Positions 7,308 to 33,645 of a stretch of 41,517 nt of DNA are shown here, in pieces; positions within the stretch are counted from its first letter, which is position 1, and each line of letters opens with the position of its first letter. The stretch is taken from the IMG/VR virus record IMGVR_UViG_3300049043_000026, positions 1 through 41,517 of that record; one strand, given 5' to 3'. This DNA is from a virus. The notes beneath the pieces are model-generated. The model worked only from the letters and a program-made list of their open reading frames with translations, made no database searches and was not told the DNA's origin. Position numbers and translations under genes: made by a program.

Positions 7308-9430
7308 TTACTTCCTTTGGGTTGCCACGAATGCCTGTCCATGCGGCGTGCTGGCGACAATGCCAGGACGATTCCGAACGGTCGGTTTGGTTTCTGATTT
7401 TGCGATTGCCTTTTGCATCGCCTCGGCGGTGACGCGGGGAATCAGCCGCACGCCAAGACAGCCCGCCGCCGCACAGGCCAGCGCGGTGGCGTCCAAATAG
7501 TGGTTGTTTTTGCTCAACTCTTTCCACTTACGGACGACGCCCTTTCCCGGAACAAACTGCTCCTCTCGCATCTCGGCCACGATGTGGTGGCTGAACGCCA
7601 AATGCCGCTTCTTGTCGTGTCCGACGTACAAACTCAGACTCCCGTCGTTCCACTGGTGAGCCTCGTTAAAGGTGGCCGTCAGGAATCGCTCCTGCAGCCA
7701 GCCTTTCCAGTGCTCGACGTCGATGATGTACAGCCAGATGCGCTCCTGCGGCTGATGGTTGGCAAAGACATGGTTAAACAGCCGCCTAGTCGGTGACTCC
7801 GTGCCCATGTGGAACTTGCTCGAGGCGTAGCCCTTGCTGGCTGCAAACGGCGTCCCGCCAACCCGGCGGATAAACTCATACACGGCCGGCGAATAGTCGC
7901 CAGAATCAACAAGGCAAAAGTCCGGCGGATTCTTGGCCATGATGTCGGTCCGCCACAGAAGCAGGCTTTGCAGCAACGCAATCTCGACGGCCTGTGCATC
8001 GGTCGCCGCCTGCATTCCTGGCGTTTCCATGACGCCGTAATCGATCACAACGCCGGTGGCATTGCCGAACCATGCGATCTTGGTCCAGTGGCTGTAGTAC
8101 TTGCCGAGGTCGAGGCCGACGGTGATCTTCAGGTCTTCCATCTTCGGCAGCTCGTGCTGCTCCAGGCCGCTGACACGGCTGGCGACTTTGTGGGCTGTGA
8201 GTCCCAGCGTCTCGGCCTGCTCCTCCTCAGGCGGTGCGTTTTGGATTTCCGTCAGGACGTAGTTCAGGCCGTTATCGGCAACGAGGTTGTAGATTGACTG
8301 CAGGCGCTGTGTTCGATGGCGACGCCTTCGCGGGTCACGGCCCGGCTGTACCGTTCGGGGTTCAGCACCTCGCTGCCGCGTTCCATGTCTTCTCGGTTTG
8401 CCAGATAAAACGCTGTGGCGTTCAGCCCGCATCCGTCGCCGCTGCGCTGGTCTTCCTGACGCTGGTCGATGTACTGCTGCCAAAGGTCCGCACGCTCCGG
8501 CCACTGCTTGACGCCGCTGTATCTGCGTCCGTTCCAGCTGGGTGCCTTCGCCTGGTTGGTCAGCTTTTCGGCAAGGCAGCGATTGTTTTGGATGGTACAC
8601 AGCACCACTCGACTGAGCCGCTTGCGGCCGTCGGCCAGTCCCGCCACGTCTCGGTTGAGGATCACGTCTCGCGTCTCGACTTGGTTCTCGTGGAACGCAC
8701 TTTCCCGCGTCTCTGGATCATCGACCAGCACAAAGTCGGGACGATTGCCGCGGATGTTGATGCCACGGATGGCACTGTCCATTCCGGCCCACGCCATGCA
8801 GACAGCCGAATAGATGCTTACGCCGCCTTCGTGCCAAGGTTCGCCCTTGATGGTTGGCGGCAGGCCGTCAATCTTCGGGAAGACGACCTGATTGCTCGAC
8901 CACTGGATTTCGGTTGGCTTGCCGTTGTGCGTCTGCTTGGCGGCTCGCTGCGGCGTTCCTTCGAGTGCCGCACATGGCACGCACAGTTCTGGGAAGTCCT
9001 CGATCAGCTTTTCATTGCTGTCAAAATGCCGCCGGATGTCGTCGAAGATGCGGCTGGCAAACGTGCCACTGGCCGCAATCACCAGCGGAAAACGGACTAG
9101 CCCGCGGCAGATCAGATAAACGATCATCGCCTTGGTGATTTCCGTCTTGCCGTCGCCGCGTGGTGCCGCAATCGCCTGGTCACCGCCGAACTCGGCCACG
9201 TCGACAATCAGCTGGATCATCTCCTTCTGGTAGTCCGCAAACGGCGACCAGAACCGATCGGGAAAGTAGTATTTCAAAAACGCCACCGGGTCGCCCAACA
9301 AAGCTCGCCGTCTCTGCAGGTCGACCGGTGGCGGAATGACAATGCTGTTTCGCTCCAGCTGTTTCCGCTCGGCGTAGCGTGCTTGCTTAGACTGCTGCTC
9401 GCCGCTGTATTTTTTCACTGTTTGAATCAC
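7308..9430 (-). CDS. terL: Terminase large subunit, GpA family (frameshifted)
   Basis: About 707 residues: the DNA-packaging motor. The ATPase domain has a Walker A-type loop APRGDGKTE at about residues 89-97 and a Walker B strand FVLVDDPE at about 233-240. The nuclease domain shows the three acidic positions expected of the GpA type: VGLDLGKYYSHW, FCLVDSGDYSPAVYEFIRR and HYLDATALACAAA. GTG start at 9430, preceded by AAGGCGAG; an upstream TAG limits other choices. The frame changes at about 8312 (GAACACAG); restoring one A gives GVAIETQRLQSIYNLV. GpA-type terminases cut at cos sites, so cohesive ends are expected. No recognisable small subunit lies beside it. Confidence 0.9.
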
Positions 9431-15167: not shown

Positions 15168-17126
15168 TTAACTCAGCGGGTTTGGGTTTGGGAAACTCAT
15201 TCCTGCCGGTGCATAGCCGATCATCACCGTCCACTTGGCGGCCAGTGCCGCTTCGATGCTTTTGGTGGTCCACTCGTTGCAGCCATCGCCCGCCCAGCGA
15301 CTCGACCACGAGTTGATCATGACTACATTCCCGCCAGCTCGCCGCTGCCAGAAAACTGTGCTGTGTCCGCCGCCGCCGCGGCCGCTATAGCTGTCGACGA
15401 CTTCGCGGTCGCAGCTGCTATTCCAAGTCACTCCAATTTGGACGGGCAAGCCTTGGTCCAACCATTCGACCACTGAGTTCACGTCTTTGAATGGTTTGGT
15501 TGTCGCGAGTCGAAACAAGAACTTGCCCTGTGCGGTTGGCGGCATCGCCGGGTTATAACGGCCGGGATATGGCCAGTCCGATTCGAGGCACAGCCCGTGC
15601 TGAGTGGCCACGTATTGGCCGCCGCTGAGCGTGCTGCCCATGTCGCCGCGGATGCCGTCTTTTTGTTGGCTGAGGTAGTAGGCCGCGGCGCGGCTGAATG
15701 CCTGTTTACGGCCGGTTGCCAAGAAATAGCAGATGCTGAACACTTGCGCCAGCGCATGGCCTTGGCAATTATGCACGACCAGACCTTGTGCGACAAAGGA
15801 ATGGTCTTCGTCTACGGTGATGTCGTAAACTGGAAAATCGACAACTGCTTCACGTTCAATTGTCCGAATAGGTCGCAACTGCCCCTCGTCACACCAACTG
15901 TAGGCAGTTTTTGTGTTGACGGTTGCAAACGAATCAGCCGCATTGCCGACGAACTGAACAGCGTCACCGCTGTAAAGGTATGTTTGGTATGACGAAAACC
16001 GCTGATGGTCGCGTTTTTGAGTTATCGAACGGCCCGGTTTCATTCCAATTGAAACCAGAAGCGTTGACAGTTGCTGCGACAAAACACGGGACGCGGTTGC
16101 AGAATGCAGCTGTAACGAGCGAACACGATTGCCAGATGCTGCTACGCGCCCGGAATCGTATCTGGCACGACTCCCATCTCCGGCAAAATAACCGCGAGCA
16201 AATGCCAGTTTTTGTGAATTGCTGCCAGTCAGAATGAAAGGCGGAACGTGCTTTTTATTGCAAAATTTTCCACAAAGCTTTTCAAGCAATCGCCCAATCA
16301 CGCATCCTTGCAGGCGGATGTGTACAGCCTTTGACGCTTCACGCTTTTGGATGCTTACAGAAACGCCAATGCGTTCCGCGAAACTCACGATCTGTTCGTG
16401 TTCAAAATGCTCATCTTTGTGCATCGTGAATACAGCACGATTAACCAGCCCAGCACAGGTTCGATCTGTAGAGCCTTCCGCGACATACAGACCAAGCACA
16501 TAGCAGGTCAGATCGTCTGCAGGGATAAAACGAGGCACCCAGTCTGGCGAATGCTTTGCTGCAACCCTGTCGCCATCGCACTGCAAATTTTCTACATAAT
16601 CTGCAACGTCAATAAACTTCGCAGGCTGCTCTTGAACACCACGAGAAACAACCATCTTGTCGGTTTCAATCACTTCATCGGCACGCACCCAAAACAGGTT
16701 GCCGTCTCGCCATACACGGACGACATGATCCGCCGTCATTCTAATGGTGCCCCATCCTTTGACGAAAAACCGATACAGGTCACCGCTGTATAGCCGCTGC
16801 ATAGTGTCGATGACTTGACGTGTTCGTCCTTGGTGCGTCAGGACGCCATCGCCAAAACGAACGTCCTCGATGTTTTTCAGTTGCCCGTCGTGCATCGTGA
16901 CTTTGGTGCCAGCTGGAAAACAGGATCCCTGCTGACCTTGATCGAGGATGTCAACCACGCCTAGCGGGTCGGCTGCAGTGTTGAATTTTGGAAACGTGTC
17001 CTTGAACTGCTTCAGCACCAGCTCGGGCTCTTGACCGCGTGACTCCAGTTCGTCGTGCTGTTCCCAGTCGAATGCGTAGCCGAGTAGTCCCGGCGTCAAG
17101 TCGATCGGCCGTTTGTCTTTGCTCAC
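15168..17126 (-). CDS. Papain-like (C1) cysteine protease interrupted by an intein
   Basis: 652-residue precursor; GTG at 17126 with GGAGG seven bases upstream, overlapping the previous stop as GTGA. Residues 69-453 are an intein (separate entry), leaving a 267-residue protein after splicing. The mature protein reads DQGQQGS-C-QGHALAQ across the junction, the active-site strand of papain-type proteases. The spliced catalytic residues would be Cys69, His203 (GGGGHSTVFW) and Asn220 (INSWSSRWAGDG, the N-S-W pattern). The intein therefore splits the protein immediately before its nucleophile, and that nucleophile is also the +1 residue of splicing. No signal peptide is seen. The gene lies among exported and membrane proteins next to a holin candidate. 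Its role may be lysis or virion processing, as argued in the findings. Confidence 0.88.
   Translation of the reverse strand: MSKDKRPIDLTPGLLGYAFDWEQHDELESRGQEPELVLKQFKDTFPKFNTAADPLGVVDILDQGQQGSCFPAGTKVTMHDGQLKNIEDVRFGDGVLTHQGRTRQVIDTMQRLYSGDLYRFFVKGWGTIRMTADHVVRVWRDGNLFWVRADEVIETDKMVVSRGVQEQPAKFIDVADYVENLQCDGDRVAAKHSPDWVPRFIPADDLTCYVLGLYVAEGSTDRTCAGLVNRAVFTMHKDEHFEHEQIVSFAERIGVSVSIQKREASKAVHIRLQGCVIGRLLEKLCGKFCNKKHVPPFILTGSNSQKLAFARGYFAGDGSRARYDSGRVAASGNRVRSLQLHSATASRVLSQQLSTLLVSIGMKPGRSITQKRDHQRFSSYQTYLYSGDAVQFVGNAADSFATVNTKTAYSWCDEGQLRPIRTIEREAVVDFPVYDITVDEDHSFVAQGLVVHNCQGHALAQVFSICYFLATGRKQAFSRAAAYYLSQQKDGIRGDMGSTLSGGQYVATQHGLCLESDWPYPGRYNPAMPPTAQGKFLFRLATTKPFKDVNSVVEWLDQGLPVQIGVTWNSSCDREVVDSYSGRGGGGHSTVFWQRRAGGNVVMINSWSSRWAGDGCNEWTTKSIEAALAAKWTVMIGYAPAGMSFPNPNPLS
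15768..16922 (-). other. Intein with LAGLIDADG endonuclease (385 residues)
   Basis: Starts with Cys (CFPAGTKVTM, the N-terminal splicing block), has a block B-like TADHVVRV with Thr and His, two LAGLIDADG motifs (LGLYVAEGS at intein residues 143-151 and ARGYFAGDGS at 242-251), a block F-like VYDITVDEDHSFVAQG, and ends VVHN before an extein Cys. All splicing residues are present, so it should be active. It would be a homing element that inserts in the most conserved codons of the protease gene. The exact ends follow from the extein reading naturally as QGS-C-QGH once it is removed. Confidence 0.9.
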
Positions 17127-17893
17127 TTCACGGCCTCCAGTGCGGTCGCGATTTCCGTGAGTGCCCCGTACCAGTCTTGGCGGCTGAAGCTGCCACGCTT
17201 GGCCTGTTCGGCTTTGACTGCTGCGTCCAGTTTTGTTTTCCAGACGCCCCACTGTTCGCACTTGGCCTTGTCGACGCACTGCCTTGCGGCAACGGCTGTA
17301 TTGATGTCGGAAAGAATGCGTTCAATGCTCGCCAGACCGCCTTCGCCGAATAGCTGGCCAGCCTTGGCACGGTAGAGACCAGCCCACGCCTTGGCGTTTG
17401 CCGTGTCGCTAGGTGCATTCTCAAACGCCACCAGACCGACGCCGTACTCGTTCGGCACCACCGAGGGGTCAGGCGGTGGCGTTGGTTCCGGCGTCGGTCC
17501 AGGCGGAGGTGATGGCTTGCCTCCAATGGTGAACGTGACTTCCCGATCATCAATCCCACGCTCGGGGTCGAAGACGGTTATTTCCACTGAATACGAACCG
17601 GAACCGGCAAAAAGGTAAGTTGCCTCTGCGACCTTTTCCGGCTCGATGCGGTTGCCGTTTTGCTTGGCCTTCAGGCGAGTGAACTTGTAGTCCGTGCGAA
17701 TGTCCAGCAGCACGACATCGCTGACGGCAACGTTGCTGTCTTCGCCAACCAAAATCCGGTTGCCTTGGACTACTGGATTCGTCACGCCAAGCAGTGCCTT
17801 TTTGCGGGTCACCTGCGTCTCGACCTGTGCTGAGGCGATGCCGCAAAGCAGTAGGGTGACCGTAACGAAAATGGCGGCGAGTTTGTTACGCAT
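17123..17893 (-). CDS. Exported protein with PKD-like domain
   Basis: 256 residues. Residues 1-22 are a Sec signal peptide (basic start, LAAIFVTVTLLLCG core, cleavage after ASA). Next is a beta-sandwich of the PKD/Ig type (SYSVEITVFDPERGID), a Pro-rich linker (PPPGPTPEPTPPP), and a helical C-terminal domain containing CVDKAKCEQW, whose two cysteines might form a disulfide in the periplasm. ATG at 17893 overlaps the stop of the upstream gene (TGATG); its own stop overlaps the protease gene. It would act outside the cytoplasm and may help the neighbouring protease reach or bind its target, but that is a guess from gene order. Confidence 0.72.
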   Translation of the reverse strand: MRNKLAAIFVTVTLLLCGIASAQVETQVTRKKALLGVTNPVVQGNRILVGEDSNVAVSDVVLLDIRTDYKFTRLKAKQNGNRIEPEKVAEATYLFAGSGSYSVEITVFDPERGIDDREVTFTIGGKPSPPPGPTPEPTPPPDPSVVPNEYGVGLVAFENAPSDTANAKAWAGLYRAKAGQLFGEGGLASIERILSDINTAVAARQCVDKAKCEQWGVWKTKLDAAVKAEQAKRGSFSRQDWYGALTEIATALEAVK

Positions 17894-31556: not shown

Positions 31557-31994
31557 ATGTTCAAAAAGCTCGAGCAGTTGCTGCTGCATTACCCACACAC
31601 CACGCTGGTCGGCACACAGTGGCAGTTCCGACGCCGACGGCTTGAGGTCGTCAGCGTTCGCGACCTTCTCACCGAACCGCTGACGCCTGCGGAGTTCATG
31701 CGACGGCCTTTGGTGCATCGCGGTCGCTGGCTGGTAAAGGCTCGCGACCTCGAGCAGCAGCAAGTCAAGCAGTTTTATCTGGCGGCCACCCGTGAGTTCT
31801 GGCGACCGACCGGACTGCGTGCCGGTCTGTACTGGCCGGGTGCTGAAAGCGACGGCCCGGCCGAGCTGCTGACCAGACGATTCGGAACGACGCCGCGGGA
31901 ACGGATTGTCTTGGCGAACGCGCTGGCCCAGCTGCAGCAGATCGATTGGCAGGGATTCGACCTGCGAATCACCATCGACAGAAAGACCAGCTGA
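31557..31994 (+). CDS. Hypothetical protein upstream of the integrase
   Basis: 145 residues with an N-terminal LEQLLLHYPHTTLVGTQWQF and a basic RRRRLEVVSVRDLL patch, then FYLAATREFWRPTGL and LARLQQ-like helices, ending FDLRITIDRKTS. ATG at 31557 has GGAGG nine bases upstream. Its stop and the integrase start overlap (TGATG), so it is co-translated with the integrase and may assist it or control lysogeny. No family recognised. Confidence 0.6.
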   Translation: MFKKLEQLLLHYPHTTLVGTQWQFRRRRLEVVSVRDLLTEPLTPAEFMRRPLVHRGRWLVKARDLEQQQVKQFYLAATREFWRPTGLRAGLYWPGAESDGPAELLTRRFGTTPRERIVLANALAQLQQIDWQGFDLRITIDRKTS

Positions 31995-33139
31995 TGAAGC
32001 ACCGCGTTAACGTCACGGTTCGCAAACGCTCGGATACTGGCTTCTACCAGCTGCGGGCAATCAGTCCGCTCAACGGCCGCGAGTTGCGTCGCAGTGCAAA
32101 GACAACGAACCTGAAGGAGGCAATGAAGGCGGCCGCCGCATGGGAGGCGGAGTTGGAGCAGGGTGTTGTCTCACGCCGCATCACTTGGGAGCAGCTGGCC
32201 GTTCGGCTGGCCGACCAGTACTTGCCGAGGCTAAAGGCCAATTCCCAGACGACGATGCGGTCCACCGTCAAGGCGTTTGGCCAGTTTGTTCGGCCCGAGG
32301 CGAACATCGGCAGCATCACTGGCGGTACGGTATCCGAGTGGACAGCCAAGCTACGGCGTGATGGGTTGCGGGAAACGACCATTGCCCGGCATCTGCGTTG
32401 CCTCAAGGTGATCTTAAACTGGGCTGTATCAACGGAACTGATGGCACGCTGCCCTCCGATCACGATGCCAGCCAACGCGAACAAGAAACGATTCCTGAAG
32501 GGCAGGGCACTCACCGAGGAAGACTTTGAGCAGCTGTGCCAGAAATCGGACAAAATCAACCCAACATTCACGCCGCTGCTCAGGCTGCTGTGGCTGTCGG
32601 GCCTGCGCATCTCCGAGGCGTTTCGGCTGTCGTTTGACTCGCCGCCAAATCAGGTCGACCTAACTGGCCGCCGGTTCATCTTTCACGCTGAAGGTCAAAA
32701 GTCGGGACACGACGAGACGATTCCGCTGCTGCCTGAGCTGTGCGACTTCCTTGGCTCGCTAGGCCACCGCAGCGGCCCTGTCGTGCGTCCGTTGGTCAAT
32801 GGCAGGCCCGCCAGCCTCGACGCCGTAAAGAGGCAAATAAGTGCCATTGGCGAGGCGGCAGGATTGGTGGTGAATGCCGAGGCTGGCAAGTACGTCACCG
32901 CACACGACCTACGGCGTTCGTTTGGCACACGCTGGGCTTTGAAGGTTCATCCGCTGGTGCTCAAGAAGCTCATGCGGCACGAGACGCTAGACACGACGCT
33001 GCGGTTCTACGTTGACCTCGACGACAGCCAGATCACGGACGCAATTCTGAACCCGGCAGCGTACACGTCAACGTACACGGCGGCGTCCTCGGCTGACGAT
33101 TCACGGACGCTGCAGCGTCGAAAAACACGGGGAAAATGA
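31994..33139 (+). CDS. int: Tyrosine integrase
   Basis: 381 residues. Catalytic residues visible: Arg205 (SGLRISEAF), Lys236, His304 and Arg307 (AHDLRRSFG), His329 (MRHETLDTTL), and Tyr339 (LRFYVDLD). The N-terminal half has the SAM-like core-binding domain (TVKAFGQFVRPEANIGSITG, ARHLRCLKVILNWAV). It integrates the phage at attP, which lies just downstream. The 3' end of the gene contains the left pair of arm repeats. Intact in one frame; ATG at 31994. Confidence 0.92.
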   Translation: MKHRVNVTVRKRSDTGFYQLRAISPLNGRELRRSAKTTNLKEAMKAAAAWEAELEQGVVSRRITWEQLAVRLADQYLPRLKANSQTTMRSTVKAFGQFVRPEANIGSITGGTVSEWTAKLRRDGLRETTIARHLRCLKVILNWAVSTELMARCPPITMPANANKKRFLKGRALTEEDFEQLCQKSDKINPTFTPLLRLLWLSGLRISEAFRLSFDSPPNQVDLTGRRFIFHAEGQKSGHDETIPLLPELCDFLGSLGHRSGPVVRPLVNGRPASLDAVKRQISAIGEAAGLVVNAEAGKYVTAHDLRRSFGTRWALKVHPLVLKKLMRHETLDTTLRFYVDLDDSQITDAILNPAAYTSTYTAASSADDSRTLQRRKTRGK

Positions 33140-33297
33140 CGAACTTCTGGCGAGCTTCTGCCAGTCTCAGATTTTTAAGTCCTGAGCGTCTGCCATTCCG
33201 CCACTCGGCCAGCATTGTTTTTGTCGTGTTTTTGAGGGTCGCTGGGATTCGGCACCCGCCACCGTACACGTAACGTACACGGCGGCCGTCCTCAACG
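33060..33297. other. attP region with arm-type repeats
   Basis: CGTACACG occurs at 33060-33067 and 33072-33079 inside the end of int, and again at 33263-33270 and 33274-33281. Both pairs are followed by near-identical sequence (CGGCGG...TCCTC), making a duplicated ~33-bp block on each side. Midway lies the tRNA-Leu-like core (33166-33213). Paired arm sites flanking a tRNA-derived core next to int is the textbook attP layout. Since the core is unbroken, the genome is in excised form. From 33298 to 33468 I see nothing else. Confidence 0.75.
33166..33213 (-). other. tRNA-Leu(UAA) 5'-half-like segment, probable attP core
   Basis: On the minus strand 48 bases run GCTGGCCGAGTGGCGGAATG, GCAGACGC, then an anticodon-arm-like CTCAGG-ACTTAAAAA-TCTGAG with a TAA anticodon. 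That is the start, D-arm and anticodon arm of a tRNA-Leu. The variable arm, T-arm and 3' end are absent, so it is not a gene. The anticodon stem deviates slightly from a perfect tRNA. Confidence 0.7.
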
Positions 33298-33468
33298 TGT
33301 GGTATTGTAGCGAAATGCCGACATTTCAGCCAAACCCAAACGGCAACCCCGAACGGGAAGAAAAACGCCCAGAATATCGCCGTTTTACCGTGCAGGAAAA
33401 TTAACGAAACGTCCAGCCACGCCCAGCGTAAAATGACCAGGGCGAGCAGGTCAGGCAGGGAGGCAGGC

Positions 33469-33645
33469 ATGGTCGACGACGTAGAGGACGACGACGATAT
33501 CGAGTGCTGGCTTACGGTGCTTTGGGGTTATGCCAGGTCTAGCCGCTGCGGATGGCGTAGCTCGAATTTAGCCGCAGGTTCTGTACCGAGAACTGGCCGT
33601 CCTCGTCTACGTCAATCCAAGCCAGCCCGTGGTTGTGAGCGTTGA
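33469..33645 (+). CDS. Possible small acidic ORF (doubtful)
   Basis: ATG at 33469 with GGGAGG five bases upstream opens an acidic peptide (MVDDVEDDDDIECWLTVLWG). After 24 codons it runs antisense into the end of the metallophosphoesterase gene, so a short version with an indel at the G4 run is possible. The good SD is the only support. Confidence 0.2.
   Translation: MVDDVEDDDDIECWLTVLWGYARSSRCGWRSSNLAAGSVPRTGRPRLRQSKPARGCER

Follow-up and report, generated by a model that had tools for sequence, protein, structure and literature searches.

A tRNA-Leu(UAA) 5' half as the predicted attachment site of a phage linked to planctomycetes, and apparent switching between 5' and 3' capture in its integrase family

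Introduction

Integrative elements that target tRNA genes may carry either end of the gene. In the Islander collection of 3919 islands, 3760 have a 3' fragment and 159 a 5' tDNA fragment (PMC4383910), and the cores of mycobacteriophage attachment sites include the 3' half (PMC10865867). Use of the 5' half, described as seldom encountered in bacteria, is known for the archaeal pTN3-like integrases, which thereby part the tRNA from its promoter (PMC8371274; PMC5495485); pTN3 itself uses nt 2-44 of the tRNA, and its system works in vitro (PMC5495485). Integration of the phages P-SSP7 and S-TIP37 into tRNA-Leu has been demonstrated by junction PCR and, for S-TIP37, also by deletions of int and attP (PMC8776855).

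Here we analyze a 41.5-kb virus record (IMGVR_UViG_3300049043_000026, 41,517 nucleotides; the whole stretch is hereafter called the window) in which portal, head protease, major head protein and terminase genes are present. Our reading of the region 33060-33333, with a probability of roughly 0.9, is that it serves as attP for integration into tRNA-Leu(UAA) by a temperate phage whose hosts are Pirellulales-type Planctomycetes.

Results

Integrase gene and other genes of the window

A tyrosine integrase gene (397 aa) lies on the plus strand at 31946-33139, with a Pfam Phage_integrase match (E = 3.4e-12) and SAM-like N-terminal domains. The protein belongs to PF00589, and the R..H.LR..H..Y motifs of tyrosine recombinases are kept in the family alignment. 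Two relatives in IMG/VR, from loci L007 and L008, are 76% identical to it and the best genome match (G080) is 40% identical, while tblastn searches of phage and plasmid collections with the window integrase gave no match.

Two other regions of the window were recorded. A 703-aa ORF on the minus strand (15168-17279) contains Intein_splicing, Hom_end_hint and LAGLIDADG_3 domains. The match to the terminase large subunit (ORF 8264-9430, within 7308-9430, minus strand) spans just profile positions 263-499 of 760, and a long ORF at 7308-8600 overlaps this terminase ORF; the terminase gene may be split or frameshifted.

Attachment site core

Beginning 33 bp past the integrase stop at 33139, the minus strand from 33210 to 33173 reads GGCCGAGTGGCGGAATGGCAGACGCTCAGGACTTAAAA and is identical at 38 of 38 positions to nt 1-38 of a tRNA-Leu(UAA) gene on a Blastopirellula MAG contig (JAJTFE010000259.1, 5418-5501; locus L006), that is, to the tRNA from its first base to the end of the anticodon loop. 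Because the identity stops at nt 1 and after anticodon-loop A38, with zero further matching bases on either side, the core is exactly the 5' half. The initial annotation had described a core that starts as a tRNA-Leu and stops past the anticodon arm, which agrees with this result; it had placed the core at 33166-33213 of the minus strand, where the tRNA-Leu 5' half is indeed found, but the true copy occupies 33173-33210 and positions 33166-33172 are the phage's own half-site ATCTGAG. In L007 and L008, the 38-nt core and these next seven bases are unchanged, though the sequence on both sides has diverged. The contig of a 28-kb relative (L330, IMGVR_UViG_3300037517_000770) terminates exactly at the end of ATCTGAG, as if the assembly had forked there.

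A 37-nt core query matched exactly in only one of 84,980 species genomes; in other members of the matching MAG's family, nt 8-38 are found in near or exact form inside full tRNA-Leu genes. On sequence grounds, the exact core links the window phage to planctomycete hosts. The initial annotation had proposed a search for bacterial genomes with an identical tRNA-Leu(UAA) and an att-flanked prophage: the former was found, as an empty attB in L006, but the genomes searched contained no lysogen of the window phage or of the two relatives with 76% identical integrases. The matching host MAG, whose matching contig is short, is without an integrase of the window's family.

Considering that tRNA-Leu genes are carried by many phages, one might take the half for the remains of a phage-borne tRNA-Leu gene that has lost its 3' half and has no integration role left. 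We regard this as hardly credible, because the half is 100% identical to the host gene with exact limits at nt 1 and nt 38, does not vary among three phages whose flanking sequence diverges, sits at the integrase between arm repeats, and recurs beside int in dozens of unrelated phages.

Crossover region and arm repeats

Tyrosine integrases are known to cross over at the anticodon loop (PMC8371274). From this and from the end of the identity, the 7-bp overlap region is probably CTTAAAA (33173-33179, minus strand), which is the anticodon loop. Around it, the core-type half-sites CTCAG (33182-33186, tRNA-derived) and CTGAG (33166-33170, the phage's own) form inverted arms 11 nt apart (33166-33186, minus strand). 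When 70 distinct 5'-half cores were tested for inverted arms, an excess was seen at a gap of 11 nt only, with arms at least 4/5 complementary in 19 of the 70 attPs as against 5% in permuted pairs. The arrangement CTCAG-11 nt-CTGAG is what one would expect if a tyrosine-integrase core had its centre at the anticodon loop.

The sequence CGTACACG has four copies in the whole window, all of them at attP (shuffles: mean 1.0, maximum 3) and all on the plus strand, forming a left pair (33060-33067 and 33072-33079) and a right pair (33263-33270 and 33274-33281); this paired form occurs twice in the window and never in shuffles. All four copies point the same way, and the distance from each pair to the crossover region is about 95-110 bp, so the two arm pairs at about equal distance on both sides that the initial annotation had pointed out are indeed there. 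The left pair falls within the 3' end of the integrase gene, and its first copy is kept in L007/L008 as CGTACACG/CGTACATC. These repeats are putative arm-type sites flanking the core on both sides.

Just past attP, a 58-codon ORF on the plus strand (33469-33645) has a strong ribosome-binding site, GGGAGG, and starts MVDDVEDDDDIECWLTVLWGYARS; by eye, its start region seems to be kept in L007 and L008. Its size and location would suit an excisionase, for which it is a candidate.

Proposed integration outcome

In the integration that we propose, the integrase would bind the core half-sites, CTCAG of the tRNA and CTGAG of the phage, together with the CGTACACG arms, two per side, and strands would be exchanged inside the anticodon-loop sequence. 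At the int-distal end, a phage promoter (33333-33304) would then be followed by the phage 5' half and the host 3' half, forming an intact tRNA-Leu that would be expressed from the phage, and at the int-proximal end the host promoter and host 5' half would run into the int 3' end in antisense, giving a truncated tRNA. Since the core is the 5' half of tRNA-Leu(UAA), integration would rebuild the gene from its front end and swap its promoter. Such a rebuilding from the other end with a changed promoter context had been suggested in the initial annotation, and it is plausible and consistent with what is seen in relatives (see below). When the phage 5' half and the host 3' half were joined in silico, tRNA-Leu(taa) was restored, and the other junction gave no tRNA.

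A crossover at the anticodon loop might also take place with no restoration of the tRNA, either in tRNA-dependent lysogeny or at an unneeded tRNA copy, the 5' half then being kept only as integrase binding sequence. A short core suffices for tyrosine integrases, and 10-bp cores work in mycobacteriophages (PMC10865867); the match, however, runs 38 nt to the first tRNA base, far past the core site, and then stops, ARAGORN detected no tRNA gene of the phage's own over the whole window, and restoration in silico is complete, all of which makes this alternative improbable. We infer that the window phage integrates with restoration of the tRNA, at the cut sites given above.

Promoter upstream of the 5' half

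Motif search and conservation point to a sigma-70-like promoter, TTGGCT-18-TACAAT (33304-33333, minus strand), which reads into the tRNA half and is proposed to serve the rebuilt tRNA. The attP region contains two sigma-70-like sites (0.1 in shuffles), the best promoter score in the upstream 130 nt was reached in 1 of 100 shuffles, and both CGCTACAAT, the -10 region, and the 18-nt spacing are kept in L007/L008. The distance from the promoter to the tRNA half downstream of it is 92 nt (92-94 nt in the window and its relatives), which is exceptional because the right arm sites lie between them. For 12 of 25 dereplicated 5' halves adjacent to int, the end of the best sigma-70 match was 12-30 nt ahead of the first tRNA base, compared with 4.6 (sd 1.8, maximum 10) in 200 shuffles. 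Promoter scores upstream of 5' halves showed no clear overall excess (median shuffle percentile 0.30, vs 0.40 for 3' halves); the enrichment in 5'-half attPs is confined to the position of the best match, not its score. P-SSP7 has a promoter match TTGTTA-16-TATAAT ahead of its 5' half.

Given 92 nt against the typical 12-30 nt, the window promoter may serve another transcript. It reads over attP toward the int 3' end and the minus-strand gene array and, at that distance from the tRNA half, could produce an antisense RNA against int or transcribe downstream minus-strand phage genes, with tRNA expression as a by-product. We consider this possible but doubtful, since 5'-half attPs as a group have the match just upstream of the tRNA half and since TTGCAA-16-TATACT ends about 10 nt ahead of the rebuilt tRNA in G080; in addition, an antisense role and a tRNA promoter role are compatible with each other. 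We infer that the promoter at 33333-33304 drives the rebuilt tRNA.

5' halves in other viral contigs

In P-SSP7 and the pelagiphage HTVC109P, too, attP is a tRNA-Leu(UAA) 5' half; it ends in CTTAAAA and is located downstream of int. Scans in which complete tRNAs were avoided by a non-T at nt 39 located a tRNA-Leu(UAA) 5' half in at least 119 viral contigs, in most cases beside an integrase and in the P-SSP7 orientation, and a 3' half, by a stricter pattern, in 27. We discarded a reading of these counts as frequencies, as the 5' count is a lower bound, the patterns are unequal in strictness and related marine podophages make up most of the 5' set. Viewed overall, the initial annotation was right to regard carriage of the 3' half as the majority case (3760 vs 159 islands). 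For tRNA-Leu(UAA) in viral contigs, however, 5' halves are a common finding, and they are common in the integrase family of the window as well. Nor is the 5' half an unprecedented reversal, as the same half is found in P-SSP7 and other marine podophages, and 5' fragments in 159 Islander islands and in pTN3-like elements.

A half convergent with int, as in the window, is also present in L334 and its relatives. Two loci with other integrases (L003 and L005) have the 5' half upstream of int and divergent from it; over nt 8-38 their cores agree with planctomycete tRNAs, by which their carriers are probably linked to planctomycete hosts.

Element ends in genomes

For relatives of the window integrase, both ends of an integrated element could be observed. 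In G080, where int is at 42214-43401, a tRNA-Leu(TAG) lies 24 bp beyond it in the same direction, from which 5' mode was predicted; a displaced 41-nt 5' fragment, not a tRNA, was then found at 33434-33474, 10 kb from the rebuilt tRNA, ahead of which TTGCAA-16-TATACT ends about 10 nt before the gene. G073 and G049 have the opposite configuration, 3' mode was predicted, and displaced 3' fragments were then found 10-12 kb away. G439 comes from the family of the matching MAG. One of its contigs carries a full tRNA-Leu(UAA) and, 10.5 kb from it, a displaced 5' half with which an integrase gene is convergent, as in the window; the window integrase and this one are not closely related. The layout of Islander 5'-fragment islands (displaced 5' fragment and complete tRNA with the integrase between) is thus seen in G080 and G439; the window record is without host flanks. 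Among int loci that have no tRNA, an Rfam scan identified nothing that was clearly a tRNA half.

On contig C40 of G439 (L300, L301), both sides of a single tRNA-Leu(UAA) gene seem to be in use, with an integrase gene (90351-91913) directly at its 3' end and the 5'-mode element upstream of it. The full gene and the 5' fragment on this contig are preceded by terminator-like sequences that resemble each other.

Capture mode in the integrase family

The family set comprised 57 related integrases, from 28 viral loci (two of which repeat L007 and L008), 30 genome loci and the window, with near-duplicates left out. Capture mode could be assigned for 44 of them, 13 in 5' mode and 31 in 3' mode, genome loci except G080, G073 and G049 being assigned by the orientation of the adjoining tRNA; the 5'-mode isotypes are Leu, Ser, Arg, Lys, Met and Thr. 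On the integrase tree, which was built quickly and includes some long branches, 7 mode changes are needed, at least 4 of them forced by starred branches, compared with 11 on average for shuffled labels, so the modes are clustered yet labile. The cleanest switch is the sister pair L009 (5' mode) and L013 (3' mode), with the fragment found in both.

G099 (L020) could not be confirmed as a 5'-mode case, since its second copy is a complete tRNA-Leu, which makes the pair L020/L035 weaker than L009/L013. Two contigs of G099, C56 (L479) and C109 (L480), have complete tRNA-Leu(TAG) genes with an identical 5' half and differing 3' halves, and the C56 copy abuts an integrase.

Discussion

It is probable that this planctomycete integrase family repeatedly switches between 5' and 3' halves across tRNA isotypes and that those of its members in 5' mode come with a tRNA promoter of their own. 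Such switching may be possible because the anticodon stem-loop core is symmetric. As 5'-mode members would bring their own promoter, the essential tRNA of the lysogen would be transcribed from phage DNA, and the prophage, not the host, would control its transcription; loss or silencing of the phage promoter would therefore be lethal. This control could make lysogeny more stable or offer the phage a means of influencing translation. Switching over several isotypes, in some cases between well-supported sisters, makes the acquisition of attachment sites testable, and such a family also allows the dominance of 3' capture elsewhere to be tested.

Compared with described systems, the window shares with P-SSP7 and HTVC109P the use of the 5' half of tRNA-Leu(UAA) as attP. 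However, P-SSP7-type integrases are only about 23% identical to the window integrase and have the half in the same direction as int, whereas in the window the half and int converge, with the promoter on the far side. Elements of the pTN3/TKV4 type also resemble the window, in that their 41-bp att is the 5' part of tRNA-Leu and the rebuilt tRNA is parted from its original promoter; their attP is inside int, which is split by integration ('suicidal'), whereas the window core lies after the int stop and int would stay whole, with one arm pair in its 3' end. Islander islands of either the 5' or the 3' type have their ends marked by a full tRNA and a displaced fragment, and 5' fragments account for 159 of 3919 islands there as against 13 of 44 assignable loci in the window's family. 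The mycobacteriophage Fionnbharth, an example of tRNA-dependent lysogeny, likewise has a tyrosine integrase with attB at a tRNA anticodon loop (PMC10865867), but phages of this type carry a whole tRNA gene and do not restore the host tRNA; the window phage, which has no whole tRNA gene of the same isotype, would do the opposite. Anyhow, a 5'-half attP is in itself of a known, less common kind, and the new part is the apparent switching of mode within one integrase family.
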